A DNA stretch of 64,000 nucleotides from Heliocidaris erythrogramma (GCA_025617745.1 CM046873.1:33241101-33305100), one strand, 5' to 3'. Positions 27,706 through 63,250 are shown, numbered from the stretch's first letter. Made by a program: numbers and translations. The notes: generated by a model not told the origin, from the letters alone.

Positions 27706-27871
27706 TGAGACTCTCATACTCCCGATTGGGGGTCGATAGAGTTTAATCAAATCGGGTATTATAGCTAACATGCCCAGTAATCCTCAAATTGGCAAGAATC
27801 CTACCTAGGATATCAAAAAACAGCAGAACGGCGGAATAGATAGGATTTGTATGGAGCGGGGGTATATAGTG

Positions 27872-28750: not shown

Positions 28751-28838
28751 GCTGTTAGTGTTACGGAACGTGCAACAGCGATTCACGATATTTGGGAAAA
28801 GGCCCGGAAATGCTCGGGGTGTTTTTCATCCCTTTCCC

Positions 28839-29338: not shown

Positions 29339-30286
29339 ATTCAAGCCCCAATAGCTTAAAAACAGAGTGAAATGGCTAAAATGTACCATAATGGTAAGAT
29401 AGTTGAAGATGTCTTCTTTAAATTGATGCTCACCAAAATACGATGATAGGTGACTGAACACTGGCCAATGTTCAAAACGCATGTCAAAATCGCCTTTTCC
29501 CAAGTTTGGGCTGAATGTTGTTCAGGAGTTATTTTCATTATTTGTGAGTGCATTAAAAAAGAGACATTCAACCAACCTTGTGCTGACCGTCCATTTCATT
29601 CAAAACTTGGACAGAGGCAATTTGACAAGAGTCCGGAAAAATGTTACAGTTCAGCTGTCCATGGTCGGATATTATTGATCAAGGTGTCAAATTAAAGGAA
29701 ACATCATCGGCTACAACAGGAGTATCGTTTATATCTACTGATTCCAAAGATATCTAGCGTTGAATCTGTGTTTCCTTGTTATTGATTCAAACTGTATATC
29801 GACATAAAATCTATTAAACCAAGCCTAGAGGTATTCCAAATTATATCAACATATTTCCTTATCTTAATAATTTTCTATGTAATATTATTTTGCTTTCTAT
29901 CATTTGCATCTTTTGCATTCAAATTTTATTTCTTATCTAATATGACACTTTAAAATAAGACAGACGCGTCTAATTTTTCAAGATATCCATCCTCACAAGT
30001 GGAAATATTATAAAAGAAACCAGTAACAGTTAATAAAAAGAAATCACTCAAGCTGGTAAAAGACTAATATATATATATATATATGTGTTTGTGTTTGTGT
30101 GTATATGTATTTATATATATATGATTTTTATATATAGCAAAAGTTGAATTTCGTTCAAATGTTTACAGTTTTGTAATCGGTATAACAGGAAAAAATGTAA
30201 GACCTACTTCGCATCAATAAAAAATGGGAATTCAGTCGAATTCAGTTTGATTTGATTTTCCTTTAAAACTTTATTTTGTTTACCAG
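29339..30286. other. Intron or 5' region of the receptor gene; no exon recognised
   Basis: AT-rich, with (TA)n and (GT)n microsatellite sequence at 30067-30122. No leucine-rich-repeat exon, signal peptide or promoter could be identified. It ends with the pyrimidine-rich acceptor of the first visible exon (TTTTGTTTACCAG). Confidence 0.5.
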
Positions 30287-30358
30287 GGACCTAAGCGGTA
30301 ATCAAATCAGTGCCATTTCGCAAAGTGCATTTGACAATCTGACAAGCCTGGTATATTT
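30287..30358 (+). CDS. LRR exon 1 (visible), 72 bp
   Basis: Acceptor TTTACCAG, donor GTAAGT. The reading DLSGNQISAI followed by AFDNLTSLVY plus a split leucine codon (TT/G) matches the LxLxxNxIxxI..AFxxLxxL repeat. It is preceded by upstream sequence not recovered. Confidence 0.9.
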
Positions 30359-42300: not shown

Positions 42301-43137
42301 TACCTACCCAATCTTCTAGGAAGTTGAATCGGAACCAAATCTCCAGGATAGATAATGCCTTCAACGGCCTATTATCCCTGCAGTTCTTGTAAGTTTCAAC
42401 TCGCCAATATGAGATATATTTTTCTTCTATCAATAATATACTACCTTATTCTGCATTTTTTAATTGCAAAAAAGTACGCTCTTAAAAACTCTCTTTCATT
42501 TTAGTAAAACCCTTAATTACTCAAATTGCATTTTCATTATTAAAATTATCATTATCATTATTATAATAATCATTACCTTTGTTTTGATCATTATTATTAT
42601 CATTATTATTGTTGTTGTTATTATTGTTATATAGTGTAGTTGGCATATTCATTTTCCATATTAGTCAATTGTGATGGCCAATGTCACCTGCTCAAGACTA
42701 TTTTTTTGAAAGGTATTCACTATACCTGGGGAGTGTTTCATCAAGCATTTTGTCAGTGATCTTCACTGACAACTGTTATAAGCTACTGAAATCCTTGCAC
42801 ATGATTGGCTGAAAGCAAATTTGTCAGTAAAAATCACTGACAAAACGCTTGATGAAACGCTCCCCTAGAGCATTCCTTCGCTTTTCATTTGCATATTCTC
42901 GACAGGGACCTAAGCAATAATCAGCTTTTTCTAAGCGAGAGGAGTCCATTCCCTGAATTGAGAAACTTGAAGACGTTGTAAGTGTGGTTTTGAATTTCTA
43001 ATGTTTTATACCGTTTCCATGTTCATTCTATAAAGTGATATACGTATTTTACTTCGCTCTCTTTTCCTATTAAGGTTAAAAAACGAAAAACATACCCCCC
43101 CCCCCCACACACACACACACATACAAGTACCCATCCC

Positions 43138-46100: not shown

Positions 46101-49100
46101 TGTCGAACCAAATTCACGGAGAAAAATAGCTGTACAATTTTTAAATAGCAAAAACCGTGATACACGACAGAAACTCCATTTTGTCAGGTACATTAGCTTA
46201 GTGTTTATTTTTCATGATGTATCTTTTTTCTCAGGAACCTAGCAGCGAATCGTATCAGCACAGTGGGACAGAAATTCTCTACTCTCTCGTCGCTTGTGTT
46301 ACTGTAAGATTTTTTCCCTATTACCAACATGATATACTAGTATCTCATTAATGGTACTTCATCCCTTTTGCAGAATTACACAAAATTCCGCGAAACTTTG
46401 CACAAGTTTAGTAAACATCCTGTAGAATGTCAAGATCGCCAGTTCTATAACTCCTTTGTAAGAAATGAAATCTTGCTTTTGTTGCAGAGGGAGCTATTCA
46501 GAAAGTACACGTAGGCCTACTATATATTAACGGTCAAATTTTTTTTTTTTTTAATTTCGCTTTTTTTCCGAGTCGAAAAAATATAGTGTTACAAAATTAT
46601 TACTTATTTAAAAGCAAACTATAATCAATTTTTACATCTGCACACATTTTTCAATTACAATTCTTTTGTACTGTGATTTGTTGCATACTCACACAACTTC
46701 AAAGTTTAGGGCTGCATAAAGGATGAAGTACTTTTAACCCATTGACCACTGAATTCTGTAATTCCCATAGGCTTAACACAGGGACCACCAGGCTTTCGTA
46801 ACTGAGTTAATATGAAGCTAATTGACCTAATTCACCTAACTGTATCGAGTAAATGAAAAAGAACCCAATTATTCTCCACAACTCACATATGGCTATAAAT
46901 CTAAACAACAAATCCTCGTTTTCAGTGGGTGTTGATAGCGATGATCATAAACACCATAAATAGAGACTCGAATAAATTCATTTCATAGTTACACTACGAA
47001 AAAGTAGTACGTCATTTTATATGCTTAGCAGTAAAAGTTCATTAATAATGTCTGTTAATGAATATGTACAATTAGATATAGCAAGGCCGTACGCAGGGGG
47101 GGGGGGGGGGGGGGGGGGGTCAGTTGCCCCCCCCCCCCAGAAATTTCAAAATCATACTTTTTTTAAATCGGGTTTTAGACTTCAAGTTATGGGTTCCTTT
47201 GAAAGTGATCATCTTGCCTCCCCCCAGGAAAAAAATTCTGCGTACGGCCTTGAGATATAGAAATGACAAAGTGCCATTATTGCTTACAAAATTAATATTA
47301 AAAGTATTGTATAAGATGTATGATTGTCACGTAAACCGTACATTCAAATCATAGACAAATGTAAAAGAGAAAACCGACACAACAGAAAAGGCATATGAAA
47401 CGAGAAAATAGCATTTAAGCTGAATTTAAGTATTTCTGTCTTCAAATAATTTACAATAACAAGTGACAGATAATAAAAGAAAAGTGTTTTGTATTACATA
47501 AATGATCTGCAGTTGCCCCTGAGGAGTCTGCTAACCCGCACAAGTGGTGTTGTTGCGTCCCCTTCTGACCATCTGTTGATTGCCCGTCTGCCCTTATCAG
47601 CGGATCTGGTCTGGACCACTAGCCCCATAAAGAACTTGTTCTGTCTGGCATCTGACGAGGGTAGTCCCACCATAGCCTTAGAATGTCTTACTCTAGCTCG
47701 CCTGTCAGCCCAGCTATGTATAACTGAAATATGGCTGACTTTAGTACCCCTATACTGGTACCCGATGGAGATAATCCTAACGTAGCCCAAACTACAAGGG
47801 GACAGCCTAACAGCTATGATTATCAAAAGTATCATGCTGCCACTTTGCTGTCAAAATCGTGTCTCCCGAGAGAAGATTTTACCCATACACTTTTACCCTA
47901 TGGAAGAATTTAATGGGTATCCACACTATTTCCTGCAGTGACAAAAATAACCTTCCACACATGAAACTGGTTTATTATAAGAAGTACCTTCACAAAAGAA
48001 TATATTAAGACCTGAATGTAAATGAGTTCAACTTCCTTGAGCAGTTGAGCTGTAGAGAAGCTCGAATTTAATACATTGATAAACGGTTTTCTATTCACTC
48101 ACTTCTACAATCGGGAGCAAAACTAAGGAAATCCTATAGGCTTGAGAAAGAGTCGAGAAATTCAGCAAGGCTACCCGAAGTTGAGATTTCTTTCAAAAGT
48201 TGAACCTTTGCAAGTACTGTTTTATACACTTTATCCTACATGGGGGGGGGGGGGGCAAGTCCAGTATTTAGCAAGTTATATGAAACTTACATGATATAGC
48301 GAGCAAAGCAATTACATCTTTATTTTTCTTTAAATGTTGAACCCTTTATTTAAGGCTATTTAAAGTAGACATTCAAAGAAAATCACAAATATGGCAATTA
48401 ATGCATCACTAGAAACTGGGAAGCTTACAGATGGCAATCGTATAAGTTTTATGTCAACTGCGTATCTGATGATTATAAAAACAACACAAATAAAAGCTCT
48501 TCTCAGCATCTGGAATATCCGAGGATTCGCCAGAAATATAGCGATGTTTTGATGTCGTCACACAAGGGATCGATCCTGCTTAAGCAGACGACGTCCTATA
48601 ATGAATGAACGTAATTGCAATGCAATTATTTATCAAATTATAAAGAGTTTGGTGTATTTAAACATGACCTTATTTCACACCATTATAAAGGGAAAGTGAA
48701 ACTGATTCTGATAGCTAAAAACCGTTTGATTGTAAATACACAGGAGAAGGGTCAATGATCAATGAAATAAACCCCACTTTCAAATTGAAAAGCCCTCCGA
48801 ATAATAGCAGGATGGTATTCGTTCCCTCTTGAAACGCCGAAATGCCCGGGTGCAAGCAGCTGAAAATACAATGGCGTCTTATTTTGTTTACAAGTGACTG
48901 ATTCCTTTATTTTTTTAACGCTGCATTTTTCATCAAAATAATACCATACACGAAGTTAAGAGTGAGGCAACAGACTAACATTAAGACTGACGCTAGTGAA
49001 GGAAGAGAAATAAGTGAAGAGGAGATGACAAAATAGGCTCTGAAAAATGTGTAAGATGTTATGGGACATCGTCTGCTTAGACAGGACTGGTCCATGGTGT

Positions 49101-52100
49101 GTCGTCACATATCTCAGCAGCGTTCGAGGAGCTCTTCAGCTGCTATATCGGGGCTGTATTTTACCGTTTTATAATTGATAATAATCATTTCTTCAAATGT
49201 TTCCAAGCGTTGAATTTGGATAACCTTGTTTAATTTATGCCATCTATGCAATAATAAGTATTAAGCCAATATTTAAAATCATTAAAGTTCTACTTTAAGA
49301 ACTTTAAACCGGAGGCTCCAAAAAACGAGTCCTGAAAGAAAATAATTATGCGAGGGAGTAAAGCGACCGAGCTTTGGAAAATTTTCGCATTTCAAACATT
49401 CAAAAACTAGATTCTAGTGCATTTACCCTCCAGATTTGGGGGTGCATAATCCGTAAGGATTATGATTTCTCTTCATTTCCCCCCTTTTTTTCCTTTCTCT
49501 CCTTAGCGTGTTTTGCGTCCCCTCAAAGTGCCGCCCGGGGCACGCCCCCCCCCCCCCCCCCCCCAAGATACGCCACTGAGCAAAGCGACCGAGTGGGGGA
49601 GGGTGTGGGAAAGGTATCACCCTCCCACACCAGGGACTTTTTCAAAAATCTGTCTATAAATCTTGCATTTTAGAGCATCTCGAAATGGTTTTTAATGAAA
49701 AGAAGGAATGCACGGATCTACGCCAATGGACGAAACCCCTTAATTGAGAGTAAAAGTGAGAACGAATTTGCTTCGATATATTCGCAATGAAGTGATGGCA
49801 TTTCTTATTTCTTTACTTCTAATCATTAAAGAATGTAATGGTATTTCAAGACATATTTCAAAACATAATGATCTTGGATAATTATTAGTTTTAAAGGCCA
49901 AGTCCAACTCAATTTCAAATATTTCAATTTTTATAGATGTGATAATAAAGAATCTCTTCCTTGTATGAAAATAAGTTACAATAATGACGATTTTACATGT
50001 TCCATATGGAGTCAAACCATGTTTTACATTATTGAAGCAAAAAAATGAAATATATGATATTTCATATAATAAAATACATAAGGAAAGGGAGTGCATGACA
50101 TCATCGGTACACTCATTTGCATACCGCCCATGTTATGGATATCACTGTTTCATGAAATAATGCAAAAATTCAAAATGCCATAACTTTCTTATTTTACATC
50201 CGATTTCAATAAAATTTTCACTGTTATACTTGTTTAAATCTACTCTATTTATTCCAGTCAACTTGATATTAGGGTGGACTTGGCCTTTAAGTTAATGTAT
50301 CATAATTCTTATCTATTTTATCCAAAAATACTGGGGGATGATAATACAGGCCACCCACCACCTCATATATTTTTTTTGAGGGGGATATAACCCCCCCCCC
50401 CCCCCCCCCCCCGCGGATCGACACCCACGGTCAATAATCTAGAGCTTGAGTAGTGTTAGGTCAACATAAGAATGAAATTTTTATATGACAATCATACTGA
50501 ACTGAACGATGAAATTGTACGGTAGCCCAGTGCCTGCACCGATGAACCGGTATGGTTCCTTTGTTAACCTATGGTAATGACATAATTCAGTAGTCATTGG
50601 GTTTATCCAGAATAAATGTTTGCCTTTCAGAAATGTTGACTCTATTTTGACGATATTGTACATGAAGTGATGGGAGAAGGAGAATGAAAGAGAGAAAAAA
50701 AAAAGAATCAGTCATGTACTAAAGCAAATGAGAAATCCCAAATGGTAAAATGGTTTTACAGTTTTATAATTAGACCCACTTATAAAGCTATTTTATTTGA
50801 CATTTTTAATACCATATCTCAAAGGAACATGGTGAAAAACATCCAGAGCCCAAATTTTATGGCAATTGGCTCATTGGGCCCCGAGATATGGCCGCATGAA
50901 TACCTCCTTAGCCCCATTGAAGTCAGTGTTAAATTGGCCTGGTTCTAAACTGTTAAGAACCAGGCCAATTTACACTGACTTCAATGGGGCTAATTAGATA
51001 TTCATATAGCCATACCTTGGGCCACCATGAACTGATTCATGTCAAATTTGATGTGTGAACGTTTTCCATCATGCTCTACCTAAATATGGTCCTAAATATA
51101 CTGAAATACAAAAATTCAAAATTTGATGACGTCACACTTCGGTGTTTTTGTTTTTGTTTTTGTTCTTCCTTCTTGGGGGTGTTTTTTTATTGTAAGAAAT
51201 GGCTTGTCACAAAGAGCAGAACACAGTTTTCAAGAACTTAATTCATTTTAACCTTTATACAAGTTAAAAGACAAAATGAAAGTGTTTATTTTTTAAAAAG
51301 GAATGTAAGACTTGTTTTTCTTGGCAATCGAGTCATGGCATTCTTCATTGGGTTTCATACATATGCCAGTGATATTCATTTATTTTATCTTCTTTATAGG
51401 GACCTGTCAGGGAACAGAATCACACGAATTCAGAACCGTGCGTTTGCTATGTTGGGAAATCTCGAGTATCTGTAAGTCCACTTCGTTAGATAGGTTGAGT
51501 TATGGTCAGGTTTGAAGGTTCTCCTTCAATTCTGAAGATTAGTGCAATCTTTTCTATGGTACCACTTCCGGGTTGTCACCTTACTCTTTGCGATAATTGT
51601 AGCGCATTAACATCCATAGGGTATGACTCTCCTACGCACATGGCCTCCAGTCAAGGTTGCCACATCTAGCATAATTATGCTTTTTAGCATAATTTTGACC
51701 CTCTTGGAATCTAGCATTATTCCTGGCATAACTTGGCCAAATCTAGCACATTTTCACTAGGATCTAGCGTAATTCTGAATTTCGGACTTTAAATAGAGAA
51801 TTTACTTTTAAGAACAGATATCTAAGGCTGAGGATTTTTTTTTTTTTTTTTTTTACTTGTCAGAAAATTTTGGACTGAAAATTGTTCCCAGGCGCCTGAG
51901 TTACGCTTCAAATGGATCTAGCATAATTTTTTCTCAATTTAGCATAATTTGGGACGATATTTGGCATAATTCCGATTTTTAGCTGTGGCAACACTGCCTC
52001 CAGTTCACTTTCTCTCCAATTAGGTACTAGGAAAGCACCTCTCCGAGAAACGGAGGGTTTTCCCCCGAACCCGAACCAGCACCGTACGCTTAATACACAC

Positions 52101-52918: not shown

Positions 52919-52992
<74 letters not shown>

Positions 52993-55900
52993 ACTGAGCG
53001 ACTTTTTGAGAAGCTGGCGAGACCAAAAAAATACGGGTCTACGTTTTGACATATTTTGACACATATTCATATTTGTACCCCCTATTTTACTCAATCCTGC
53101 ATCTGCCCCCCCAACATTTTCTTTTGCCCCCCTCTTGCCCCCCCACTTTAAAAATCCTGGTGCCGCCACTGCACTTTAGTAAAGGGTATGAAAATTAGGT
53201 TGAGCAGGAATTAGCCTTCCAATTTGTGAGAGGCGAGTCATTTGGAGCTTACAAAATTGAGGGTGATATGATAAATTCATTGCGATCAGTTTTGGTTTTC
53301 GGAGTGAATTTTATGGTTTATTTTTATGCATGAGTGAACAGGAATTGCATTTATTATTGTAGCATTGTAACTTTCCCTGGTAGACTCAGTGGTGTGTTCA
53401 TGTGAGTCAGGATGGGATGATGGTACATGTTGCAGGGGAGGTGAGATTGGGTAGGACCTTTATTGTTGGATGGATGGGATAAGGGTCAAGAGGACATTAT
53501 TCCACCCCCTCCCACTCTCTCGCTTCGTGGGTGTGCTGGTGCATACCTTGACAATTCATATACATTGGTCTCCATTCCAAAATATCCAGACCACCTTCCC
53601 TTATCCCGAATTCTATCATTTCCCAAATTTGGACATGTTGCAATTACCCATTGACCTGAAGAATAAGTAGCCAACATCTGCGACATTCCTTTTTTCGACG
53701 CTACAATAATAAATGCAATTCCTGTTCACTCATGCATAAAATGTTAATCCATTAACCTCAAATTTCACTCAGCAAACCCAAACTCATCAAAATTGATCAT
53801 AAATTTTTCATATCATCCTCAATTCCGTAAGCTCCAAAGGACTTTCCTCTCACAAATTGGAATGCCCATTCCTGCGCAATCTAATTTTCATACCCTTTAC
53901 TAAAGTGAGCAGTGCTCACGCAAGCATGAATTATTTTCGGACTTTTTGGCGTCATATGAAAGTTGAGTCTATGGGCTTTCCATACATATAAACCTTTCCC
54001 CTCAGAATTGTATTTGGTGGATATTTCAAAAGTGTAAAGTTTTTTTTTGAGACGCACGTTATGTGCATATTAGACCACACACACACATACACGCACATGT
54101 AGCATTCAAAGTTTGATCCAAACTCTTTCATATTGTCTTCTTTAGAATATGAGGGCATTTGAAGAGAAATTTTTTTTCAGCTGACATTTCTTCTATGATA
54201 TTCTGCCAAACTAACATAAAAAGAATGAGAAAGCTCACATTTTTTTTCACATTCAGGCTTACAAGAAATCAATCTTCTCTTACACGTTATCATAATTATA
54301 TAATTCGGATACGGAACGGGTACATACACATGATACAGTGAGATCAGCAGGAGGTTTCTCCTAATGCCCCATATGAAATTGGAGGGGCGGCTGATGAAAT
54401 GAAACAGAGTAGTCCAGGGGCAATGCTTAAACTTGTTTAATTGGGAAAGTTGATATCATTTTCCCAACTAGCACCAGAAATAAATAAATGAATAAATGAA
54501 TAATTAAACAACAAATAAATAATATTTATGAAAAGGAGTAGCCTATCAAACTATAGCAGTTGTCACATAAAATTTTAAAGACGCCTCTGCATAAGTCCTG
54601 GGGACCGGTGATCCTGCAGTTCCCCGTTATATTAGTTTATGCAGACCAACAGACAACAGTGGCGTAGTTACAAAGACACCGCCAAGTTTTATAAATGGGA
54701 AAGGGGGGGGGTAACTTCGAGGTAGTTGCTTTGTTTTCTTCTTTGATATTATTGAAGGTTAACAGGAAATACACTTCGAATAATTCACTTTATCACCATA
54801 TTTCACTTATGAAACCGTAATTATATTTTCTGTATTGACCAATGAGTCTCGAAGTGGTGTAATTTATGTTTCCCCGTCCTCTTCTTTTAGACGGATCTCC
54901 GGGGAAATTTTAGATGTTCCATCTAACGTTTTCTCTGATTTGGAGTCTCTTAGGTTCATGTGAGTATTTAATTATTAGATGTCTTACATTTGATAAGCTG
55001 AACCCTGGAAAGGTTATGTCAATTTGGAATCAAAGAACCTCAATATCCGTCATACATGCAAACATGAACAAAAAAATTACTCTGAAATGTAGTGCGTTAA
55101 TCAAAACATTAACGAGACTGGCTGTGATCGCACACCCCATTTTCGAGGTTCTAACACGAAACATTCCTTGCCTTATTAGGGAAATCCTGCAATGTTAAGT
55201 TACGCACGTATTAATAACACTGCAATGCACCTTAGCGATTTCCATTAAAAGTGACTGAATCATGAGCTAATTGATTTTCTTATCTGAAGAAAAGGAAACA
55301 CCCCCAAATACCAGGACCTGTTATAGTCCGTGTTTCAGACTGCAAAGGACAGGAGGAAATGAAACTGAACCTTACTTTGTATGTTGCCTCATTTACTCTA
55401 AAACAAAACAAAGAATATAAGTTCACCAACTTTCATTAGGTGGTTACAGCATAAAGTAGGTCCTTAAAATATACATGTTTTTAATCTTCTCTCTTTACCA
55501 TCCCATGTCCTTTGGAAGAATATCCAAACGTTAAGATAATGCAATTGTATTATTCATGATAAATGTTGCTTGATAACATCTGGTTTGATTAACGCAGATT
55601 TTTATTTGTTTATTTTTGTAGAACCACAGCCGACCACCGACTTTGTTGTCTTGTTGAAGAATCCGTCAACACAACGTGCGTTATTACTTCTTCCCCCCTA
55701 TCCTCTGGAGCGTTGTAGCAGTCTTTTGCCAAATCTTCCGTTGAAATTCATAGCCTGGCTCTTTGCATTATTTGCTATCATCGGAAATGTTCTGGTCATC
55801 TTAGTCCGTTTGTTGGACAAGAGGCTGAAAGTGGCAGGTGTGACCAATAAATTCTTGATCAATCAGGCTATGGCTGACTTATTCATGGGTATCTATATTG

Positions 55901-57342
55901 CCATGATTATCTCAGCCGATGTAGAACACGGCAAATACCACTTCTTGGTGGATAAAGCCTGGCGCACTTCGGAAAAGTGTTCGTTCGCTAGTTTAATCGG
56001 TTGGGTATCCAACGAGGCATCCGCCATAGCGGTAATCTTGAGCACGGCAGAAAGATTGGTTTGTACAGAAAAACCGAGGGGGAGGCTTACGTTCTTTGCC
56101 TCCTGCCTGCTCATTGTTATGTGCTGGGTGTTGTCCTTCGTTTCGAGCGTCTTGGTAACAGTGATAAGCGAGAAATCCCCAGAGAAATATGGCTTGGCTG
56201 AAATGTGTATCCCCGTTTACTTTCACTCGCAGCCGAAGGATGTGCTCATAAGTGACAGCCATTGGACTGTTCTCTCTACCACTTACACGCCACCTACGAG
56301 GCAGGTTGAAATTCTCAACCCACCAATGCGGTACTCTGTCTACATCCTCATCATTGTAAACCTTCTGTCCTCCCTCATTACCGTAATCTCCAATGTGAAG
56401 ATGGTGGTAAGGAAATGGAGGCATATTCGTACACTTGAAATAATAATTGATGTCCCACTCGGTAACATGGATGGTGCAACACCCGGTGCCATACCTGATA
56501 CCACATCCGATATTACACTTGATACCAATCGTGACAACATACCTGATAACAAACATACCACAAATGCTACCACACCCAATATCGAACCCGATACCAACCC
56601 TGACACCACACACGGTGCCACTCCCAATACCAAACCTGATACAACACCCAGTGCAACACCCAATACCAAACCGGATATCACACCCATTACGGCGCCTGAA
56701 ATCGCATCAGGTTCCACACCAAATACCGAATCTGTTACCACACCGTGTACCAAACCCAATACCAAACTTAATACAAGACCCAGTGCCACACCCAGTACCA
56801 ACTCTGATACCACGCACGGCACCACATCCGCTACCGCACCCGATTCCAAATTTAATACCACTCCCGAAATCATTATCACGCCCGACACCACACCCGACAC
56901 CACACCCGACACCACACCTGATACTACACCTGATAACATACTTGATACCATACCCGATACCACTTCTGATATTCTACTTTATACCACTCCTCTCGAGCAC
57001 CAACTTGTCCGCAAGGCTGCTCAGCGGACTGCTGTCATATTTCTCATTGACCTTTTGTCTTGGATTCCCGTTCTTGTCATCGGCATCGCTTCCCAAACAG
57101 ACGTGTTGATGACGTCACTCTTTTCCTGGGCGATTATGTTTCTGATCACAGTGAAGGCGGCTGTCAATCCCTTTCTCTTTACATTCCTTTTCTATTCAGA
57201 GGACTGCAGGAATGAAGGTAGTGCCCTGATTTTCAGCTTGAGAATGCCCAGAGATCCAAATGCGCCCCCGACCATAACTTATTCAGAAACCGAGACAAGA
57301 GATGCGTTGGACGAAACTCTCGCAATCGCTTTCGGAGTTTAA
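30287..57342 (+). CDS. Leucine-rich-repeat GPCR, relaxin-receptor-like (type C LGR), 5' incomplete, frameshifted
   Basis: A cell-surface receptor: the leucine-rich ectodomain binds the ligand and seven helices signal to G proteins. Thirteen coding exons are visible: 30287-30358, 30848-30916, 31981-32052, 36276-36341, 37927-38046, 38971-39042, 39715-39783, 42320-42388, 42906-42977, 46235-46303, 51400-51471, 54891-54959 and 55622-57342. Every LRR exon is phase 2 at both ends and has AG/GT sites, giving 297 residues (12 repeats). The last exon holds the hinge, 7TM domain and tail. A short hinge with CC directly after the last repeat points to type C. No LDLa module or signal peptide is visible because the 5' end is missing. 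The hinge frame reaches a TAG at 55716 unless one C of a six-C run is disregarded. Introns (0.5-5.1 kb) are full of transposons. Confidence 0.9.
30848..30916 (+). CDS. LRR exon 2, 69 bp
   Basis: The exon starts after GTGTCAG and ends before GTAAGT. The repeat reads DLRYNQISSI then AFTRLTSLES; it is one residue shorter than exon 1 between the Ile and the AF motif. The upstream intron is 489 bp. Confidence 0.9.
30990..31150 (+). repeat. (AGT)n/(ATT)n microsatellite in intron 2
   Basis: About 45 copies of AGT/GTA triplets with CTACT inversions, grading into ATT/ATC triplets. Open frames over it encode only Val/Leu runs and are not genes. Confidence 0.9.
31151..31980. other. Intron 2, remainder; nothing recognised
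   Basis: No exon or element identified. It ends with TTGCTTTGTTTCAG, the acceptor of LRR exon 3. Confidence 0.5.
31981..32052 (+). CDS. LRR exon 3, 72 bp
   Basis: Acceptor TTTGTTTCAG, donor GTAAGT. The repeat reads YLNKNRISSV then SFSDLTKLDI with the split leucine. Confidence 0.9.
32053..33480. other. Intron 3, first part; nothing recognised
   Basis: AT-rich, without exon or transposon ends that I can support. Confidence 0.45.
33481..33631. mobile_element. 151-bp MITE in intron 3
   Basis: Inverted ends CAGGGGCCCGTTGCACAAAA and complement, followed by GTTGCGTTT repeats in both arms. No clear target duplication (flanks TGGTATTA and TTCACATA), so the superfamily is not assigned. Confidence 0.75.
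34054..34200. mobile_element. hAT-like poly-C MITE in intron 3, 8-bp duplication (1 mismatch)
   Basis: Ends GGGGGCGGCTCTAGG and, inverted, CAGGGGCGGCTCGGGG, with C runs and a CA repeat inside. Flanks CTAGTTGA (34046-34053) and CTAGTTAA (34201-34208) are an 8-bp duplication with one difference. Confidence 0.7.
34468..35468. mobile_element. Long-inverted-repeat element, copy B (complete), intron 3
   Basis: This is the best-preserved copy: it starts CAGTGCGTCCCCCCAAAAGT and ends with ACTTTTTTATGGGACGCACTG, followed by TA. The halves are inverted copies meeting near 34970, with words such as GCTTGAGTGAGCAAAAGG, GGTATCAGCAAAGTT and TTTCAAAATATTTTCAGG. No open frame suggests a transposase, so it would need one in trans. 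Confidence 0.8.
35731..35760 (-). ncRNA. Hammerhead-ribozyme-like core motif
   Basis: On the minus strand the sequence is CTGACGA, T, GGAGTC, TGCAT, GACTCC, GAAA, C. CUGANGA, a closed stem II (6 bp with a 5-base loop) and GAAA are the conserved core of hammerhead ribozymes, known from Penelope-like retroelement ends. One unpaired T lies between CTGACGA and the stem. The stem III partner and cleavage triplet could not be placed, so activity is unproven. No reverse transcriptase was recognised next to it. Confidence 0.4.
36276..36341 (+). CDS. LRR exon 4, 66 bp
   Basis: Acceptor ATTTTTCAG, donor GTAAGT. It reads DLRNNQIRFS then FGSSTSLQV. This is the shortest repeat and lacks the usual A before F and the leucine after it (SST), so it is a degenerate repeat in a conserved exon frame. 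Confidence 0.88.
36342..37100. other. Intron 4, first part; nothing recognised
   Basis: Contains a G run near 36903 and pyrimidine-rich sequence. No exon or element was defined. Confidence 0.45.
37101..37318 (+). repeat. Tandem duplication, 2 x ~107 bp, intron 4
   Basis: TCATTACCGGTCGAGG starts at 37101 and 37208. Both units continue through TTGTCAAATACAT and TTTTACGGTACACATACATG with few differences. Confidence 0.85.
37340..37690 (+). repeat. (ATT)n/(ATC)n triplet microsatellite, intron 4
   Basis: About 350 bases of imperfect ATT, ATC and GAT triplets on both strands. Open frames over it are artefacts. Confidence 0.85.
37927..38046 (+). CDS. LRR exon 5 with a 16-residue expansion, 120 bp
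   Basis: Acceptor TTGTTACAG. The reading DLRNNSLGER begins a normal repeat. It is followed by RYRGYGFHFFPPLSENVAL, then SFAGLPNLTR with the leucine split as CT/G. I chose the donor GTACGT at 38047, not GTAAAA at 38055, because only the former gives phase 2 and the L-x-x-L-x-x-L spacing of the other repeats. The extra residues lie between the strand and helix sides of the repeat; in related receptors LRR units are 22-24 residues. Confidence 0.8.
38047..38970. other. Intron 5; nothing recognised
   Basis: AT-rich intron without identifiable elements. It ends CCATTTTCTTGAAAG, an acceptor weaker than the others. Confidence 0.5.
38971..39042 (+). CDS. LRR exon 6, 72 bp
   Basis: The acceptor CTTGAAAG has a poorer pyrimidine tract; the donor is GTAAGT. 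The repeat reads YLSTNNIRTL then TFIGLTSLLY with the split leucine. A transposon starts within ten bases of the donor. Confidence 0.88.
39050..39434. mobile_element. Long-inverted-repeat family, right half only (copy C), intron 6
   Basis: It begins ACTCACACAAAGTAACATTT, matching the inner right arm of copy B (35058 on). It ends with TTTTCTGGGACGCACTG followed by TA. The left half is missing. Its edge lies about 8 bases after the exon 6 donor site. Confidence 0.75.
39715..39783 (+). CDS. LRR exon 7, 69 bp
   Basis: Acceptor TGTGTAACAG, donor GTAAGC. It reads DLSRNELNSI then AFVGLKSLEE with the split leucine. Confidence 0.9.
39839..40926. mobile_element. Long-inverted-repeat element, divergent subfamily (copy D), intron 7
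   Basis: It starts CAGTGTGCATCAAATAAGTA after TA and ends with the approximate complement TTTTTATACACACTG. The arms (to about 40090 and from about 40655) are inverted copies. They keep the same order of subterminal words as copy B: a TTATGGGT..CATCGGATG block, GTGAGTA..GGCTACTTTTG, then CTCAGTCTTGAAT. The ends differ, so it is a related but separate subfamily. The centre (40090-40655) is not inverted. Confidence 0.7.
40927..42319. other. Intron 7, remainder; one palindrome and a G run
   Basis: There is a G run at 41042-41059. An inverted repeat, ACTTTCGAAAAATAAACTCAAG (41711-41732) against its complement near 41853-41874, defines a hairpin of about 41690-41895. A small CCAGGGAGGTGATC palindrome lies near 41611. 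No exon was found. Confidence 0.45.
42320..42388 (+). CDS. LRR exon 8, 69 bp
   Basis: Acceptor CAATCTTCTAG, donor GTAAGT. It reads KLNRNQISRI then AFNGLLSLQF with the split leucine. Confidence 0.9.
42727..42866. mobile_element. 140-bp MITE in intron 8
   Basis: Inverted arms GGGGAGTGTTTCATCAAGCA and complement, each continuing with TTTGTCAGTGAT. The loop contains a CATGATTGGCTGAAAGC word. TA-rich flanks; the superfamily is not assigned. Confidence 0.75.
42906..42977 (+). CDS. LRR exon 9, 72 bp
   Basis: Acceptor TTCTCGACAG, donor GTAAGT. It reads DLSNNQLFLS then PFPELRNLKT with the split leucine. Confidence 0.9.
43081..43173 (+). repeat. Homopolymer/microsatellite tract C(n)-(CA)n-A(n), intron 9
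   Basis: A C run, then CA repeats, and after CATCCCCT a run of about 30 A. Length is likely imprecise in the assembly. Confidence 0.85.
43563..43884. mobile_element. ~320-bp MITE in intron 9
   Basis: Inverted ends GGTGGTATTCTGAGATTTAT and complement, extending to AAAATCTTTTC. The left arm word ATTCTGAGATTTATTCTATC recurs in direct orientation near 43667, so the left end is partly duplicated. Confidence 0.75.
43909..44971. mobile_element. GC-rich inverted-repeat element with subterminal CGTACG repeats (Harbinger-like?)
   Basis: Ends TAGTCACAACTGCCCGTACG (43912-43931) and the exact complement (44949-44968). Both flanks are rich in short words such as CGTACG, ACGCAAG and GTGCGG. Immediately inside the left end is a hairpin ACGTAGAGGTCCGTGGCAGT against its complement (43950-44030). 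On the minus strand a start near 44379 reads MAGARGRGQKRTREAKRV, a short basic N-terminus that could be the remnant of a second transposon protein. Termini and subterminal structure resemble PIF/Harbinger elements, but the 3-bp duplication is obscured by the adjoining element. Confidence 0.55.
45283..45417 (+). pseudogene. Truncated N-terminus of a transposon protein (putative transposase stub)
   Basis: The reading is MLNSEEANLEERRCLYVAAG followed by ALIVYQQERDLEERREEEKKG and a stop after 44 codons. The acidic, Glu/Arg-rich helix resembles the start of Harbinger-type nuclease proteins only in general character. The sequence after AAAAAAGG switches to the end of the minus-strand stub, marking a deletion junction at about 45405. 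Confidence 0.4.
45430..45585 (-). pseudogene. Truncated N-terminus with MADF-like start
   Basis: The minus-strand start at 45585 reads MASSSSSDNDGTENTEHEEK, then a basic segment KRTKRARTSKR, and YKWTEDAVQLIADFVKENSA with LYDKTF. The W-x(4-6)-LI-x-F/V-x(3)-P/S-x-LYD pattern is that of MADF/Myb-SANT-like DNA-binding domains, which accompany Harbinger transposases. The domain is cut off after about 20 residues. Confidence 0.5.
46235..46303 (+). CDS. LRR exon 10, 69 bp
   Basis: Acceptor TTTTTTCTCAG, donor GTAAGA. It reads NLAANRISTV then KFSTLSSLVL with a split leucine (CT/G). The AF motif is replaced by KF. Confidence 0.88.
46304..47081. other. Intron 10, first part; nothing recognised
   Basis: AT-rich, one T run at 46541-46552, no exon or element ends identified. 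Confidence 0.45.
47082..47252. mobile_element. hAT-like poly-G/poly-C MITE, exact 8-bp duplication AGATATAG
   Basis: Ends CAAGGCCGTACGCAG and its exact complement. G and C runs lie at the left. AGATATAG is at 47074-47081 and 47253-47260. Confidence 0.88.
47489..47913. other. Coding-like island in intron 10, unassigned
   Basis: The base composition changes abruptly to a balanced, codon-like sequence inside an AT-rich intron. Open frames exist on both strands. On the plus strand ADFSTPILVPDGDNPNVAQ continues to LPREDFTHTLLPYGRI and a stop at 47911-47913. On the minus strand a frame runs 47835-47494. I recognise no family. A fragment of a retroelement gag/pol is the likeliest origin. Confidence 0.3.
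48573..49090. mobile_element. ~520-bp inverted-repeat element in intron 10
   Basis: The left end CCTGCTTAAGCAGACGACGT is matched by the complement of ACATCGTCTGCTTAGACAGG (49067-49086). The interior is AT-rich without a transposase. Target duplication unclear. Confidence 0.55.
49091..50780. other. Intron 10, later part; homopolymers and repeat fragments
   Basis: AAAGCGACCGAG occurs at 49361 and 49582, on either side of a C run ending AAGATACGCCACTG. This looks like a partial poly-C element related to the family elsewhere in the window. A second C run lies at 50392-50412. No exon recognised. Confidence 0.45.
50790..51125. mobile_element. ~330-bp palindromic element in intron 10
   Basis: The core arms CCCCATTGAAGTCAGTGT (50912-50929) and the complement of ACACTGACTTCAATGGGG pair almost perfectly over about 45 bases around AACTGTTA. 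Outward the pairing continues with more mismatches (ACCATATCTCAAAGGAACAT against the complement of the right side). It would form a long hairpin in RNA or single-stranded DNA. Confidence 0.65.
51400..51471 (+). CDS. LRR exon 11, 72 bp
   Basis: Acceptor TCTTCTTTATAG, donor GTAAGT. It reads DLSGNRITRI then AFAMLGNLEY with a split leucine (CT/G). Confidence 0.9.
51652..51996. mobile_element. hAT-like MITE in intron 11, exact 8-bp duplication CCTCCAGT
   Basis: Ends CAAGGTTGCCACATCTAGCA and, inverted, CAGTGTTGCCACAGCTAAAA. ATCTAGCATAATT words are repeated on both sides of a T run. CCTCCAGT occurs at 51644-51651 and 51997-52004. Confidence 0.88.
52471..53171. mobile_element. hAT-like poly-C/poly-G element nested in copy E, 8-bp duplication CACTTTAG
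   Basis: Ends TAATGGCGGCACCAGG (degraded) and, inverted, CAGTGGCGGCACCAGG. CACTTTAG is at 52463-52470 and 53172-53179. The right arm of copy E carries the uninterrupted site near 53897-53904 in inverted form, confirming the insertion. Inside is a partial tandem repeat (CTTGGCGCCGTCC..GGCAAAAA, about 52600-52770 and 52780-52920) and a 72-base C run. Confidence 0.85.
52921..52992 (+). repeat. Poly-C tract, 72 bases
   Basis: Uninterrupted run of C from 52921 to 52992. Length in the living genome is uncertain. Any protein reading across it is an artefact. Confidence 0.95.
54891..54959 (+). CDS. LRR exon 12 (last repeat), 69 bp
   Basis: Acceptor CTTCTTTTAG, donor GTGAGT. The repeat reads RISGEILDVP then VFSDLESLRF and ends with AT of a split codon that becomes Ile when joined to the A of the terminal exon. 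The Asn of the LRR core is Glu, as expected for a terminal, irregular repeat. Confidence 0.85.
54960..55621. other. Intron 12; nothing recognised
   Basis: Short AT-rich intron ending in TTTGTTTATTTTTGTAG. An open frame from 55570 runs through the acceptor into the terminal exon but is only readthrough, not coding. Confidence 0.6.
55622..57342 (+). CDS. Terminal exon: hinge, 7TM domain, long Thr/Pro/Asp loop, tail
   Basis: Joined in phase, the exon starts TTADHRLCCLVEES-VNTTCV, a short hinge with adjacent cysteines and an NTT glycosylation site, as in type C LGRs. After a six-C run (55693-55698) the frame must change by one base to give PLERCSSLLPNLPLKF and TM1 (..IIGNVLVILV). TM2 holds MADLFMGIYI. 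C137/C213 (counting from 55570) can form the TM3-ECL2 disulphide. TM3 ends AERL instead of DRY, TM4 has MCW, and TM5 is SVYILIIVNLL. ICL3 (residues ~283-486) carries ~180 residues of repeats. TM6 has IDLLSWIPV and TM7 AVNPFLFTF. The tail is ~50 residues, stop TAA 57340-57342. The family normally has a short ICL3. Confidence 0.92.
56461..56993 (+). repeat. In-frame Thr/Pro/Asp/Asn repeat in intracellular loop 3
   Basis: About 178 residues of diverged units such as TPNTKPD, TTHGATPN and DTTPD. The most recent part is a perfect 12-bp array (CCCGACACCACA) at 56881-56932 giving PDTT five times. The repeat stays in frame throughout with no stop, while third positions vary, so it is translated sequence rather than junk microsatellite. 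It is likely disordered and offers many Ser/Thr sites. Confidence 0.9.
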
Positions 57343-57823: not shown

Positions 57824-58625
57824 CAGTGCGTCCTCAAAAAACAGTTAAGTCAGAAAAAGTCCCCGAAATAAATATTTCAGAATATTTGGAACAAAATTTC
57901 ATACCTGTGTAATAGCTAAGCATCTCTTCTATTACATAACACCTAAAGACCTGTGAGCAAGGACCACTTTTGTGAAAAGGTGCAAAATTCAGACTTGACA
58001 AGAATTGGTATTTCTTCTGGCACTTCAGACATTTTATCAACGATGAAGTTCTGTTCACTGTATGTCGTTACGTATCTCATCAGTATTTTCATGTTTCAGT
58101 GAGCAACATTATCCCCTTTACTGAGTGTTTTGAAATATTAGTTTAAGCAAGGTTTTAATTCAAGCTGGTTTTCTCAGTCAACCATAAAGTTTAGAATCCC
58201 ATCTCAAGAAATATAGAAAACAAAGCCTATTCTTTCATAAATTGCATTTTAATGATCAGAATATGAAAGTTTCTAAGCCTTTTCAAAACTCCAAACTTTC
58301 CTGATACCAGACAGAACCAATACAAAGTTTTGTCAGCCATATATTTTGCACCATTTCACAATAATGGTTTTTGCTCACTCATGCGTAACATATCGTTAGA
58401 TTTTTGGTGTCATTTGATAGGAGAGACCCTAAGCTATCCATAGGTGTGAACATTTCATGAACATATTTTGAAATGTTCATTAGGGGAGACTTTTTTCAGC
58501 TCTCAACTTTTTACGGTTCTTCGAAATACCAATTCTTGTCAAGTTTGGTTTTTGCACCCTTTCGCAAAAGTCGTTTTTGCTCACTCAAGCTCAAAATATT
58601 GCCACATATTATATACTCTTTAATG
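57824..58625. mobile_element. Long-inverted-repeat element, copy F
   Basis: It starts CAGTGCGTCCTCAAAAAACA after TA, with the same subterminal words as copy B (TATTTCAGAATATTTGGAAC, CATCTCTTCTATTACATAAC, GACTTGACAAGAATTGGTAT). The inverted right arm carries GGTGTCATTTGATAGGAGAG and GAAATGTTCATTAGGGGAGA. The right end lacks the GACGCACTG terminus and passes into a partial further unit (58530-58620), as in copy A. Confidence 0.75.
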
Positions 58626-60558: not shown

Positions 60559-61490
60559 TCATGACCATTGTTTTCGTTTCACGCTTATGTGCGTTACTTT
60601 GAACTGTTCCCATTTCTTATAGTGTAGTGTCAAAGTATTCCGTTCGGTTGCAATCTTTCTTTCTTCTTGTTTACTTTTAAAGGGATACTCAACCGCAGAT
60701 TGTGGACGTTTTAATGCCGCGAGAGGGCACTGTGATCGTTACCTGATCATGCCGTTGCGACTGGTCGCCGCACAAACATGCACGCTCCACCTGAGTTCGA
60801 GCTCTCGTGCGAGATTCGGTCGGCTTCGTGCAGTCGAAATGTAATCCCACTTAGTCCAACGGACGCGTTCGACGCACAAACTTTGTGTACGAGTGAATGG
60901 GGCTTACGCAATCCTGACTTTCCCCACGGCCGCCCGGTTGCGTATCCCTTTAAGCAGTTTTTCTCTTATTTCTTCAATACTTGGAGGCTTCTTTTTTTCC
61001 CCGACTAAGTTATATCAAATATTTAATTAATAAAATAACATGATTATTTGCCGATCTTCAGTTGTTTCCTCTAATCCAATGTGTACTTCCTTCCAAATCA
61101 TGTCTTTAAGAATGGGAAAATCTAAGATGTTACTTCACCGTTCCCATAATTTTGTTACCATTTCACATTCAAAAAATATATGCCTATAAGTCTCCTCCTC
61201 TTTACCACAAAATGAGCATTTATCACTTGATATAAAGTGAAACCTGTAGAAATGATGGTTCACAAATATAATATAGAGCAATTTAAATTGAAATTCTCTC
61301 AATTTATTATCCAATGTGCTTAATCTAGGACGACAAAAAACCTTTTCAATTTCTTTTACCGACATATTATACGATAATTGTAAATTCTGAAAACTAACAG
61401 GAGTGTCGGCCATTTTTTGTATGCACGCCCTATACAAATTCTTTGAACAAACTGATTCAAATTGAAAATTTTTCTTTGAAAACATAAATT
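60559..61490 (-). pseudogene. L1/Tx1-like retrotransposon ORF2, C-terminal fragment
   Basis: The minus-strand reading contains LSTLDNKLREFQFKLLYIIF, SSDKCSFCGKEEETYRHIFF and ECEMVTKLWER. The C-x2-C..H-x(4)-C knuckle after a KLREFQ-K-LH-like block is the C-terminal signature of L1/Tx1-type ORF2 proteins. After frame breaks (stop near 61137) it continues with IEEIREKLL, a MITE, and SKQEERKIATERNTLTLHYK, to a TGA at 60559-60561. Endonuclease and RT are absent (5' truncation), as usual for dead copies. Confidence 0.75.
60681..60949. mobile_element. 269-bp MITE with TTAA target duplication
   Basis: Ends AGGGATACTCAACCGC and, inverted, AGGGATACGCAACCGG. TTAA lies on both sides (60677-60680 and 60950-60953). 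Removing it with one TTAA rejoins the retrotransposon reading EKLL-KSKQEERK. TTAA duplication is typical of piggyBac or Kolobok mobilisation. The interior is GC-richer than its surroundings. Confidence 0.85.
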
Positions 61491-61499
61491 CTATTTTTA

Positions 61500-63250
61500 G
61501 ACCGTCAAGATATGATTCATTTTATCGATCGCAAAAATTGATCGTGTAAATAGAGGGTGCATTATAGGCCTACAGATATAAGTTTTCTTGATATAATTCG
61601 TAGTGTATAGATTACAAAAAGTTGTATTGAGGCATTATTAAATAATTCTGATTAATTTTCAACTCCATTCAAATGTGAGTTCGTTTAAGTTTTCGTGTTT
61701 GTGGCTTCTTTTTTGAAATTGTAGAACGCAGCCATGCATTAATATTGCGTTTTGGTAAAGGAGTAAATACTTGTTTTCGATTTGTTGGAAGGCACCGTCC
61801 GAAGTATTGTGCTATCACACGCAAGTGCTCATAAATAAAATGTTTAGTGTAAGAAGGTATTGGGAATTTGAACTGATCGACTTTATCAAACTAGGTCATG
61901 GGTAATAAATCACAAAATGTCCGATCCAGTCGTGTTTTTACCCCCGTATCACTATATATAAACATATCCTAGCTTTCATGTGCTTTGTGGATGATGAATT
62001 GCATCTGTATGTTGGTAACAGATATCATTTATTATTCTAAGATTTGTAAAGGCATTTGTTATATATTGTACCAGTATCGTAAGTGAGTGTACGCTGTATA
62101 AATTATTGTGCATGCAGGTAATGTAAAGTGTACCAATTACCTGAAAATTGTGCACAGCTAAAACGTAAAAAGTTAACCTAAAACAAACTTTACCTGACCT
62201 TCTATGGGTTAACGGTTAAGGAGTATGAAGGAAAAAAAAGGTTAAAACACCCTCGCGCGGAACCAAACTCCGAGTTCGGTTCTTTCGGTTCGGGCCATAT
62301 GCCATCCTTGTTTTGTGCGGGCGCGTATACGGGTCCGTCAATTAGTCTACTGGCAAGTTTCTGTACTGTTTATTTTAGAGAGTATTTAAACTTGCAATAT
62401 CTCTTTATAGAATTAATATTTAAAGCTCATACTTTGAATATGGCGACATGGAATTCCTTACATACAGAACAAAATATTTCTGTGATTGGTAATTAGACAA
62501 TTGTAATCAATTGTATGTAAATAGGAGGTATAATACATTCAATTCTTGCAAATAAAAATATGAGTTTGGGAAGGTATTAAGATTTCATACGGACTTTGTC
62601 AAATTGTGTAATGGTTATTATATCACACATTTCCAATATTACCGGTCCATTCGTCTTTTTACACCCTCCTTTCTGTTTGTATCTTATCCTTTTATGTGCT
62701 TTGTGCAGGATTAATTACTTTATCGCAGGTTTGTACCCTTTGTAACTGTTGAATACGTGTTAATAAGTTATAACTTAGATGTGGATGAACTAGGCATTTT
62801 TTCAAGTACTAATCTATCGTAAGTAAAATTAGACCTATTGATACATTATTAAAGTGGAGGGTAAAGATGATCTCACAATTATTGTAATCAATATGGGAAG
62901 AGAGGTTAAAAGTGTGTTATATTCAATCTTTTGGCTGATAAAAAAGGGTTTAGTTTAAGAAAAGCTTTTGGAGTTCATGCATTGTTATATTTAAGATTTG
63001 TAGGAACTATGTACTTTTTCTCATTATTATACAATCGTAAGTAAGTTTACTCATAAATCATGTGGAGGTTGACGATGATTAAATAATTGCGATCAATATG
63101 TAAATAGGAAGTATAGCGTGTTAAATTCCATTTTTTCCAAACAAAAAAAAAAGTTTAAGAAGGTATTGGGTTTCAAACAAACGTTGTCATAATTGGTTAT
63201 GGTTAATAAATCAAGCTTATTCAATAATAAAAACGGCCTTACAGTCTCCG
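61500..63250 (+). repeat. Three diverged copies of a ~0.6-kb unit
   Basis: The phrase AAGAAGGTATTGGG followed by a TTTGAAC/TTTCAAAC-like word, GTCATAAT/GTCAAATT and GGTTAATAAATCA recurs around 61850, 62570 and 63160. ATCGTAAGTRAGTTTA-like words recur at 62079, 62817 and 63031. No coding sense. Part of it (62417-62500) also resembles intron 6 sequence at 39436-39530. Confidence 0.5.

Follow-up and report, generated by a model that had tools for sequence, protein, structure and literature searches.

An in-frame 12-bp tandem repeat between TM5 and TM6 of an LRR-containing GPCR gene in Heliocidaris erythrogramma

The third intracellular loop (ICL3) of a receptor faces the cell interior and ordinarily contributes to the control of signalling. 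An ICL3 filled by a tandem repeat is a known oddity of the dopamine D4 receptor (DRD4), whose repeat carries SH3-binding proline motifs. The exon-3 48-bp VNTR of DRD4 ranges from 2 to 11 repeats and shows a nonsynonymous bias, according to the available part of PMC3164202. Receptors with an ICL3 longer than 46 aa have been placed in a group "gated by ICL3" with a tendency towards a single G protein (PMC10033409, accessible text), and the ICL3 of M2R is described as wrapping round arrestin (PMC13105114, accessible text), for which PxxPxxP spacing serves as a phospho-code in the part of PMC7913897 at hand. Among LGRs, the gonadotropin receptors have threonines in ICL3 that have been linked to arrestin binding (PMC4505104, available part). 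The locus described here places a repeat-filled ICL3 in the LRR hormone-type receptor family, for which no report of an ICL3 tandem repeat was encountered.

Type C LGRs are marked by N-terminal LDLa module(s), several of them in type C2 (GRL101), and the 7TM domain of type A LGRs is encoded by one terminal exon. RXFP1 and RXFP2 have 10 LRRs, and the hinge of type C LGRs is ~30 aa, compared with 72-123 aa in other LGRs, as given in the accessible portion of PMC4561518. Within type C1, some genes of the RXFP/LGR3 clade carry phase-1 introns in TM2 and TM5, and some of the arthropod-LGR4 clade carry a phase-0 intron after TM7, as far as the available text of PMC11863921 goes.

The repeat block and the loop that holds it

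The window, a stretch of 64,000 nt given as one strand (Heliocidaris erythrogramma GCA_025617745.1 CM046873.1:33241101-33305100), contains a 7TM exon with a single unbroken frame from TM1 to the stop codon (55624-57342; 572 codons without a stop), ~50 codons of which follow TM7. The repeat block lies in frame between TM5 and TM6, as the original prediction had it, with limits now refined to those in Table 1. Eleven raw hydrophobic segments were grouped as seven TMs, the fifth and sixth of which enclose the block; TM1-4 match 7tm_1 above the cut-off (E=3.6e-9), and TM6-7 do so below threshold (E=0.052). With TM ends set by hydropathy, not by the numbering of PMC10033409, ICL3 spans ~213 residues between hydrophobic cores. 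Alignments to solved LGR chains place 265-270 residues between the ECL2 cysteine region and TM6, compared with 58 for RXFP1, 51 for the LGR 8w1z and 49 for TSHR, whose TM6-7 piece reaches a score of just 1.1 bits. The loop flanks, NVKMVVRKWRHIRTLE... and LEHQLVRKAAQRT, are preserved on either side of the block, the pattern that insertion into a normal loop should leave.

Table 1. Features of the receptor gene and its repeat block, in window coordinates
Feature	Position	Strand	Remarks
LRR exons	30287-30358, 30848-30916, 31981-32052, 36276-36341	+	
LRR exons	38971-39042, 39715-39783, 42320-42388, 42906-42977	+	
LRR exons	46235-46303, 51400-51471, 54891-54959	+	
Terminal exon: 7TM domain, ICL3 repeat, C-tail to stop	55622-57342	+	acceptor score 2.7, 96.5 percentile
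Hinge coding stretch, LRR-exon frame (TTADHRLCCLVEESVNTTCVITSSP)	55623-55698	+	homology support weak
Six-C run, meeting point of the two frames	55693-55698	+	
TM5 hydrophobic core	56335-56391	+	
Strong potential splice donor, gtg/GTAAGG	56407-56412	+	99.4 percentile of window GT sites
12-bp coding tandem repeat, in frame, degenerate	56464-56991	+	~44 units, 176 aa in ICL3
Array, period 24	56490-56552		Tandem Repeats Finder
Array, 36-bp higher-order repeat	56586-56686	+	2.8 copies, 81% matches; Tandem Repeats Finder
Array, period 12	56748-56801		Tandem Repeats Finder
Array, period 12	56877-56963		Tandem Repeats Finder
Exact 12-periodic run, 38 bp	56881-56918	+	just over 3 units; youngest part of repeat
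Possible in-frame acceptor AG	56996-56997	+	87.2 percentile; 591-bp excision would keep frame
TM6 hydrophobic core	57031-57087	+	RXFP1-like in comparison of TM6-7 with solved chains

The unit consensus, ACC ACA CCC GAT, encodes TTPD, and Tandem Repeats Finder resolves four distinct arrays inside the block; the perfect 12-bp core that had been predicted corresponds to the 38-bp exact run. At lag 12 the block has a self-identity of 0.58, compared with 0.35 +/- 0.02 (maximum 0.42) in 2000 codon shuffles, and the best fit to the consensus jumps in phase twice, once by 3 and once by 6 bases, each time keeping the frame. A 20-base pattern derived from the unit, with at most three mismatches, has eight matches in the window, all of them within the block, and none in 100 shuffles. 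The 176 residues, among them T 50, P 27, D 20, N 15, I 13 and S 11, carry a net charge of -16. Since the +2 frame is likewise free of stops throughout the block, the open frame is weak evidence of coding. Allelic variation in the length of the repeat is plausible, given the fresh exact core and the 36-bp higher-order units.

The DRD4 VNTR is the closest precedent, being an in-frame coding tandem repeat in the ICL3 of a class A GPCR; its unit is 48 bp (16 aa), whereas that of the present repeat is 12 bp (4 aa, TTPD), in an LRR-GPCR host, and the block holds no PxxP motif of the SH3 type (0, against a shuffle mean of 3.9). With ~213 residues, the loop lies beyond the 46-aa divide (PMC10033409, accessible text) together with those of muscarinic M2 and other long-ICL3 class A receptors, and it resembles that of M2 in being rich in Ser/Thr and suited to arrestin, as described in the available part of PMC13105114. 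Unlike the loops of these receptors, it is a tandem repeat, and the three solved family members compared are short-looped.

Receptor family and gene structure

Upstream of the 7TM exon, LRRs are encoded by eleven exons that measure 66-72 nt and share phase 2 (30287-54959, + strand; LRR_8 E=2e-54), from scans that retained stop-free candidates only, so that broken exons could not have appeared. The combination of an LRR ectodomain (LRR_8) and a class A 7TM domain (7tm_1) identifies an LGR, with its two halves offset by a one-base frame shift, and the solved chains closest to the 7TM domain are LGRs. The closest match of the LRR part alone is the IGF-binding acid-labile subunit, and the matches ranked after it include LGR5 and LGR4, within the best 60 of 170.

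The description of the receptor as relaxin-receptor-like is unsupported here, the assignment being unsettled on the sequence comparisons. TM6-7 are nearest to RXFP1 among solved chains, and TSHR, FSHR and LHR are absent from the 16 matches for this region; TM1-4 are closest to glycoprotein hormone receptors (TSHR 45.0 bits versus 31.8 for RXFP1), with FSHR also nearer than RXFP1; and a whole-frame search of solved chains places 8w1z first and RXFP1 second (47.3 bits). An LRR ectodomain, with eleven LRR exons here, is shared with RXFP1 and RXFP2, as a short hinge would be if read through; the gene does not resemble these two in its ICL3 repeat or in its introns: the frame from TM1 to the stop is uninterrupted, without the TM2 and TM5 introns of some RXFP/LGR3 genes or the intron after TM7 of some arthropod-LGR4 genes. 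A six-frame motif scan of the window found no LDLa motif, in a sequence where the gene has no defined 5' end and positions 28839-29338 are a 500-N gap. A tandem duplication, 99.3-99.6% identical, occupies 14430-18686 in the same assembly. The label "type C" is unsupported, given the mixed affinity to PDB chains, the LDLa result and the introns. The 7TM domain on a single terminal exon recalls type A LGRs; unlike glycoprotein hormone receptors, the gene has the ICL3 repeat and, if read through, a hinge far below the 72-123 aa of other LGRs (PMC4561518, accessible portion).

The receptor had also been taken as otherwise ordinary, which the raw sequence contradicts, as one base separates the frame of the LRR exons and hinge from that of the 7TM, with the shift upstream of TM1. 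The LRR-set frame gives a plausible hinge and then terminates (TTADHRLCCLVEESVNTTCVITSSPLSSGAL followed by a stop). The hinge measures ~42 aa (55622-55749, last LRR exon to TM1 core) only when read through the frame change, and its match to FSHR is then weak (E=0.17), with much of the score from TM1. The discrepancy at the C6 run would reflect an assembly error, a recent lesion or an unrecognised splice.

Possible origin and role of the repeat loop

The reading preferred here, tentatively and at somewhat less than an even chance, is that a coding minisatellite has made ICL3 disordered, acidic and rich in Thr, so that the loop buffers the access of G proteins and provides phosphosites for arrestin. 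A 12-bp minisatellite would have been born in frame where a divergent LRR-containing GPCR gene encodes ICL3, and grown by rounds of slippage or unequal exchange, of which the old decayed flanks, the 36-bp higher-order units and the young exact core may be traces. Once transcribed and translated, it would add ~176 residues, bringing ICL3 to ~213, and the length and charge of the insert may buffer access of the G protein to the receptor core, altering coupling. The predicted disorder-prone character stands: the charge-hydropathy score of the block is -0.134 (five of seven sub-windows negative, two about zero), and the 7TM parts score as folded.

The block is also phospho-rich in potential, with 61 Ser/Thr among 176 residues, and the Thr/Asp lattice could present many kinase sites, so that a phosphorylated loop might recruit arrestin; threonines in the ICL3 of gonadotropin receptors, members of the glycoprotein hormone group, are tied to arrestin in the available part of PMC4505104. 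Against residue-shuffle means, [ST]xx[DE] (15 versus 8.3), TP (16 versus 9.3) and [ST]xx[ST]xx[DE] (10 versus 2.7) are in excess, which any TTPD-like unit would produce because shuffling the residues abolishes its period. In the block the short arrestin code shows no enrichment (7 versus 9.7), and the broad long code is modestly so (15 versus 9.7, reached by 116 of 2000 shuffles). As the C-tail also has Ser/Thr close to acidic residues, arrestin would not necessarily be recruited by the loop. A bolder version, which seems very doubtful, would have each TTPDTTPD pair carry a full PxxPxxD arrestin code and the fast-evolving minisatellite act as a tunable phosphorylation array, with allele length setting G-protein gating and arrestin avidity and in-frame excision from 56407 toggling long- and short-loop isoforms.

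A close rival to the preferred reading, though on balance rather unlikely, is that the translated minisatellite is a neutral passenger merely tolerated in ICL3, a length-permissive part of GPCRs. Tandem repeats can spread by slippage in the absence of selection, and variation between units gives no clear, frame-specific sign of purifying selection, which makes a functionless tolerated insert quite possible: in-frame pN/pS over all slots is 0.82 uncorrected (0.73 with Jukes-Cantor correction), against uncorrected values of 1.02 and 0.82 when the frame is shifted in either way, and mean mismatch at codon positions 1, 2 and 3 is ~0.21, 0.30 and 0.29, without a third-position excess. The Pro slot, where pS (0.64) exceeds pN (0.37), argues the other way, as do the [ST]xx[ST]xx[DE] and TP enrichment given above, though any TTPD unit would yield it, and, weakly, the frame-keeping of both phase jumps. 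Under the minisatellite reading favoured here, selection, if any, would act on bulk and composition, not on exact sequence. The loop would equally drift free of constraint if the frame difference between hinge and TM1 meant that the gene is broken. Such a recent pseudogene is unlikely; besides the terminated LRR-set frame and the weak read-through hinge, it draws on the N and F that stand in TM5 and TM7 where tyrosines are expected, but the 7TM exon is stop-free over 572 codons, the LRR exons are open within the limits of the scan, and the place where the two frames join is a C6 run, probably a typical site of consensus error, in an assembly that also has the duplication and gap described above.

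Less probable still is that all or part of the block is an in-frame exonic intron (exitron) spliced from 56407, leaving a short loop or two isoforms. The donor scores 5.0, above the six scored donors of the same gene (0.0 to 4.9), and acceptors ending before 56998, 57016 and 57025 would all keep the frame (591, 609 and 618 bp), but these acceptors are weak (-1.4, -2.3 and -3.4; 77-87 percentile) beside the seven scored acceptors of the gene (2.7 to 8.2), and the top nearby acceptor, 57101, is out of frame with the donor (694 bp) and would delete TM6. In-frame excision would also remove VRKWRHIRTLE and leave at most 4 + 18 residues, from the "SN" of TM5 to the end of the "ID" in TM6, a loop shorter than that of RXFP1 (~37) or FSHR (~32).

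A receptor's selectivity for G proteins and its binding of arrestin have been proposed to depend on how long ICL3 is and how it is phosphorylated. As the compared family members are short-looped, an insertion of ~176 residues with a regular phospho-lattice would make a clean natural experiment, in which the receptor core is unchanged, the loop has been added by slippage and one construct removes it. If neutral, the repeat would show how far ICL3 can grow before an LGR ceases to tolerate it; if its length varies in the population, it would be another system of the DRD4 kind, outside the family to which DRD4 belongs.

A repeat-filled third intracellular loop

The receptor gene lies on the forward strand, and its 7TM domain is encoded by a terminal exon that begins after the acceptor ...TTTTTGTAG and runs as one long frame to its stop, with seven transmembrane segments that we grouped from 11 raw rows of a hydropathy scan. 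The cores of TM5 and TM6 are separated by 213 residues, 176 of which form a degenerate tetrapeptide repeat with the consensus TTPD, from ACC ACA CCC GAT, while both native loop ends (NVKMVVRKWRHIRTLEIIIDVPLG and LEHQLVRKAAQRT) are kept around it. The original prediction of an in-frame repeat within the third intracellular loop (ICL3) of the 7TM exon is borne out, as is its exact 12-bp core, which is seen in a 38-bp exact run. Lag-12 identity is 0.58, against 0.35 ± 0.02 in codon shuffles (n = 2000; maximum 0.42), and a 20-base unit pattern (up to 3 mismatches) has eight matches in the window, all in the repeat, and none in 100 shuffles; a chance origin is ruled out by both sets of shuffles. 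TRF reports four arrays within the repeat, with periods of 12, 24, and 36. The repeat is layered, with an old body that has decayed, higher-order units of 36 bp, and the one young exact run. Slippage or unequal exchange acting repeatedly leaves layers of this kind, and variation in repeat length is therefore plausible, judging from the sequence.

In PDB alignments, the distance between the cysteine region of ECL2 and TM6 is 265 residues versus 58 in RXFP1, 270 versus 51 in 8w1z, and 266 versus 49 in TSHR, the last comparison involving a TM6–7 piece that scores 1.1 bits only. ECL2 looks about 28 residues longer than that of RXFP1 by eye, and the remaining excess in length is the repeat.

Positions of the receptor features and of the surrounding elements within the window
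Feature	Position	Strand	Remark
LRR exons (eleven)	30287 to 54959		66–72 nt each
Terminal 7TM exon	55622-57342	+	
One-base frame discrepancy	55623-55720		LRR-set hinge frame vs 7TM frame
C6 run	55693-55698		the two frames meet
ECL2	56206-56334		
TM5 core, end	56391		
End-of-TM5 residue	56392-56394		Asn (VISN)
Best donor near the repeat	56407		gtg/GTAAGG
TTPD repeat	56464-56991		176 aa
Exact run in the repeat	56881		38 bp
AG acceptors, first exon bases	56998, 57016, 57025		excision of 591, 609, and 618 bp
TM6 core, start	57031		
TM7 NPxxY motif	57166-57180		Phe (NPFLF)
Tandem array	8268-8707		217 bp x 2, 99% matches
Tandem array	13288-13958		224 bp x 3, 98% matches
Tandem duplication	14430-18686		~2.1 kb, 99.3–99.6% identical
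Uninterrupted C run	52921-52992		72 C, adjoining a 176-bp tandem pair
Transposon remains	7017-7580	-	
Transposon remains	23244-23861	+	
Transposon remains	25836-26198	+	
Transposon remains	61135-61521	-	
Dispersed repeat family	1694-2180, 34723-35472, 39049-39438, 58069-58512	both	76–81% identical

Affinities of the receptor and its leucine-rich repeats

The whole frame is matched in the PDB by 8w1z (49.0 bits), RXFP1 (47.3), and TSHR (41.8), where 8w1z is a nematode LGR. The TM1–4 piece is closest to TSHR (45.0 bits), followed by FSHR (41.2), 8w1z (40.9), and RXFP1 (31.8), and the TM6–7 piece to RXFP1 (26.0) and 8w1z (20.6), with no glycoprotein hormone receptor among its 16 matches. Pfam matched the split 7TM domain, though not in a scan of the whole ORF, and NCBIfam gave no match for the two 7TM pieces. 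Tyrosine would be expected both where TM5 ends and within the NPxxY motif of TM7; the residues found, Asn and Phe, could reflect altered activation or decay.

Eleven phase-2 LRR exons, each flanked by an AG acceptor and a GTAAG or GTGAG donor, lie upstream, as found by scans that retained open exons only and would miss broken ones. Joined, they match LRR_8 (E=2e-54) and, among the best 60 of 170 PDB matches, the IGF-binding acid-labile subunit most strongly (155 bits); LGR5 and LGR4 are among those that follow. Motif scans found no LDLa motif, and a regular expression found no LRRNT-like cysteine cluster in 20001-30287. According to PMC11863921, phase-1 introns interrupt TM2 and TM5 in some genes of the RXFP/LGR3 group, and TM7 is followed by a phase-0 intron in some of the arthropod-LGR4 type; all of these introns are absent here. 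A hinge of about 42 residues with eleven LRRs would fit type C over A or B (PMC4561518), provided that reading continues through the frame change upstream of TM1 and that no LRR has been missed. Because the PDB affinities are mixed, no LDLa motif was found, the clade introns are absent, and the hinge and LRR fit is conditional, we class the receptor as a divergent LGR of unsettled type rather than as a relaxin receptor. The earlier label of relaxin-receptor-like is unsettled: TM6–7 are nearest to RXFP1 and TM1–4 to TSHR, and neither an LDLa motif in the motif scans nor RXFP/LGR3-type introns were found.

Integrity, coding status, and splicing

The LRR phase, carried into the last exon, yields a hinge that bears cysteines, TTADHRLCCLVEESVNTTCVITSSP, before it reaches a stop, and the 7TM domain follows in the next frame, one base away. 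A later exon start at 55711 scores 3.3 versus 2.7 for 55622, yet runs into a stop, and starts at 55719 and 55722, which would lead from the LRR frame into TM1 with no hinge, score weakly (-4.0 and -2.2). A 54-residue LRR-plus-hinge peptide has 25 matches to LRR proteins (best E=0.012), chiefly through its LRR part, and the read-through peptide is best matched by TSHR chains (E=0.046, residues 19–64, mostly within TM1) and by FSHR (E=0.17, residues 8–62); the hinge would thus be indicated mainly by position and cysteines, with weak homology. The discrepancy reflects an assembly error, a lesion of recent origin, or an unrecognised splice, and we lean towards the first because the 7TM frame holds 572 codons and a 500-N gap and a near-identical tandem duplication are present. 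A pseudogene, broken between hinge and TM1, is improbable. The duplication itself is of very recent origin or else an artefact of haplotype assembly. Transposon remains flank the gene (4 of 9 scanned ORFs matched), with Tc3-type transposase HTH, reverse transcriptase, RNase H, and zf-RVT domains; the window holds no tRNA, and no Rfam family reaches its gathering score there.

The repeat sits in the 7TM exon without frame change, its two phase jumps being of 3 and 6 bases, but a second forward frame is likewise stop-free across it, so the open frame is weak proof of coding. When units are compared, the uncorrected in-frame pN/pS is 0.82 (0.73 with Jukes–Cantor) versus 1.02 and 0.82 in the shifted frames, giving no sign of purifying selection on the repeat residues by this comparison, and only the Pro slot leans clearly synonymous (pS 0.64, pN 0.37). 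The residues therefore drift almost freely, the Pro slot apart, and these ratios speak for a translated but functionless passenger that is tolerated, a reading we regard as less likely than not yet a close rival of the favoured one; the bulk, charge, and composition of the repeat could still matter. Alternatively, the repeat might be removed as an in-frame exonic intron. Scored with a rough hand-made matrix, which places five of six tested gene donors at 0.0 to 1.3 because a non-G last exon base is penalised, the donor at 56407 stands at the 99.4 percentile of 3339 GTs in the window and outscores all six, and three AGs downstream keep the frame. However, these acceptors reach the 77–87 percentile only, under all seven tested gene acceptors, and the products would lose the TM5 extension and juxtamembrane residues, leaving a loop shorter than those of RXFP1 or FSHR. 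In-frame pairs with the better acceptor at 57101 (donors 56486, 56462, and 56615; 615, 639, and 486 bp) would delete TM6. Given the weak acceptors and the lost residues, excision is kept as a minor rival and is very unlikely overall; full excision would be unlikely as the main form and possible as an alternative isoform.

Proposed working of the loop and its precedents

By a charge–hydropathy formula, the loop scores -0.134 versus +0.42 and +0.37 for the two 7TM halves (five of seven sub-windows negative, two about zero), and it carries a net charge of -16 and 61 Ser/Thr, in agreement with the predicted disorder-prone loop rich in potential phosphosites. AlphaFold2 without an alignment gave a model too poor for use (mean pLDDT 41.6, pTM 0.29). 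The T-x-x-T-x-x-D spacing recurs in TTPDTTPD: there are 10 instances of [ST]xx[ST]xx[DE] (mean of 2.7 in shuffles, reached by 0 of 2000), 15 of CK2-type [ST]xx[DE] (8.3; 7 of 2000), and 16 of TP (9.3; 5 of 2000), which bears on proline-directed kinases. Such excesses are expected from any TTPD-like unit. In residue shuffles, PxxP, the SH3-type motif, was not enriched in the repeat (0 vs 3.9). The broad long arrestin code, with spacing from PMC7913897, is modestly raised (15 vs 9.7, reached by 116 of 2000 shuffles), and the short code is not enriched in the repeat (7 vs 9.7).

Long ICL3s occur elsewhere in class A. A tandem repeat in ICL3 is already known in DRD4, with a different host family and unit; the DRD4 VNTR shows a nonsynonymous bias, according to PMC3164202, and residue constraint is likewise weak in the present repeat. 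Among the papers listed in a literature search, titles and openings of abstracts showed no precedent for an LGR whose ICL3 is filled by a repeat, and the term "intracellular loop" had no text match in PMC8286064, PMC6267866, and PMC11863921. Pattern searches confirmed none of 25 candidate stretches in a genome contig collection and none of six in a viral one, as expected for an animal gene. The novelty seems to lie in the receptor family and the TTPD unit.

Arrestin binding in gonadotropin receptors has been tied to ICL3 threonines, G-protein choice in other receptors is gated by a long ICL3, and the ICL3 of M2R wraps around arrestin, as stated in PMC4505104, PMC10033409, and PMC13105114, respectively. 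By the reading that we favour over its rivals, although it is itself somewhat short of probable, the acidic and probably disordered loop would act as a buffer for G proteins and as a phosphosite array offered to arrestin.
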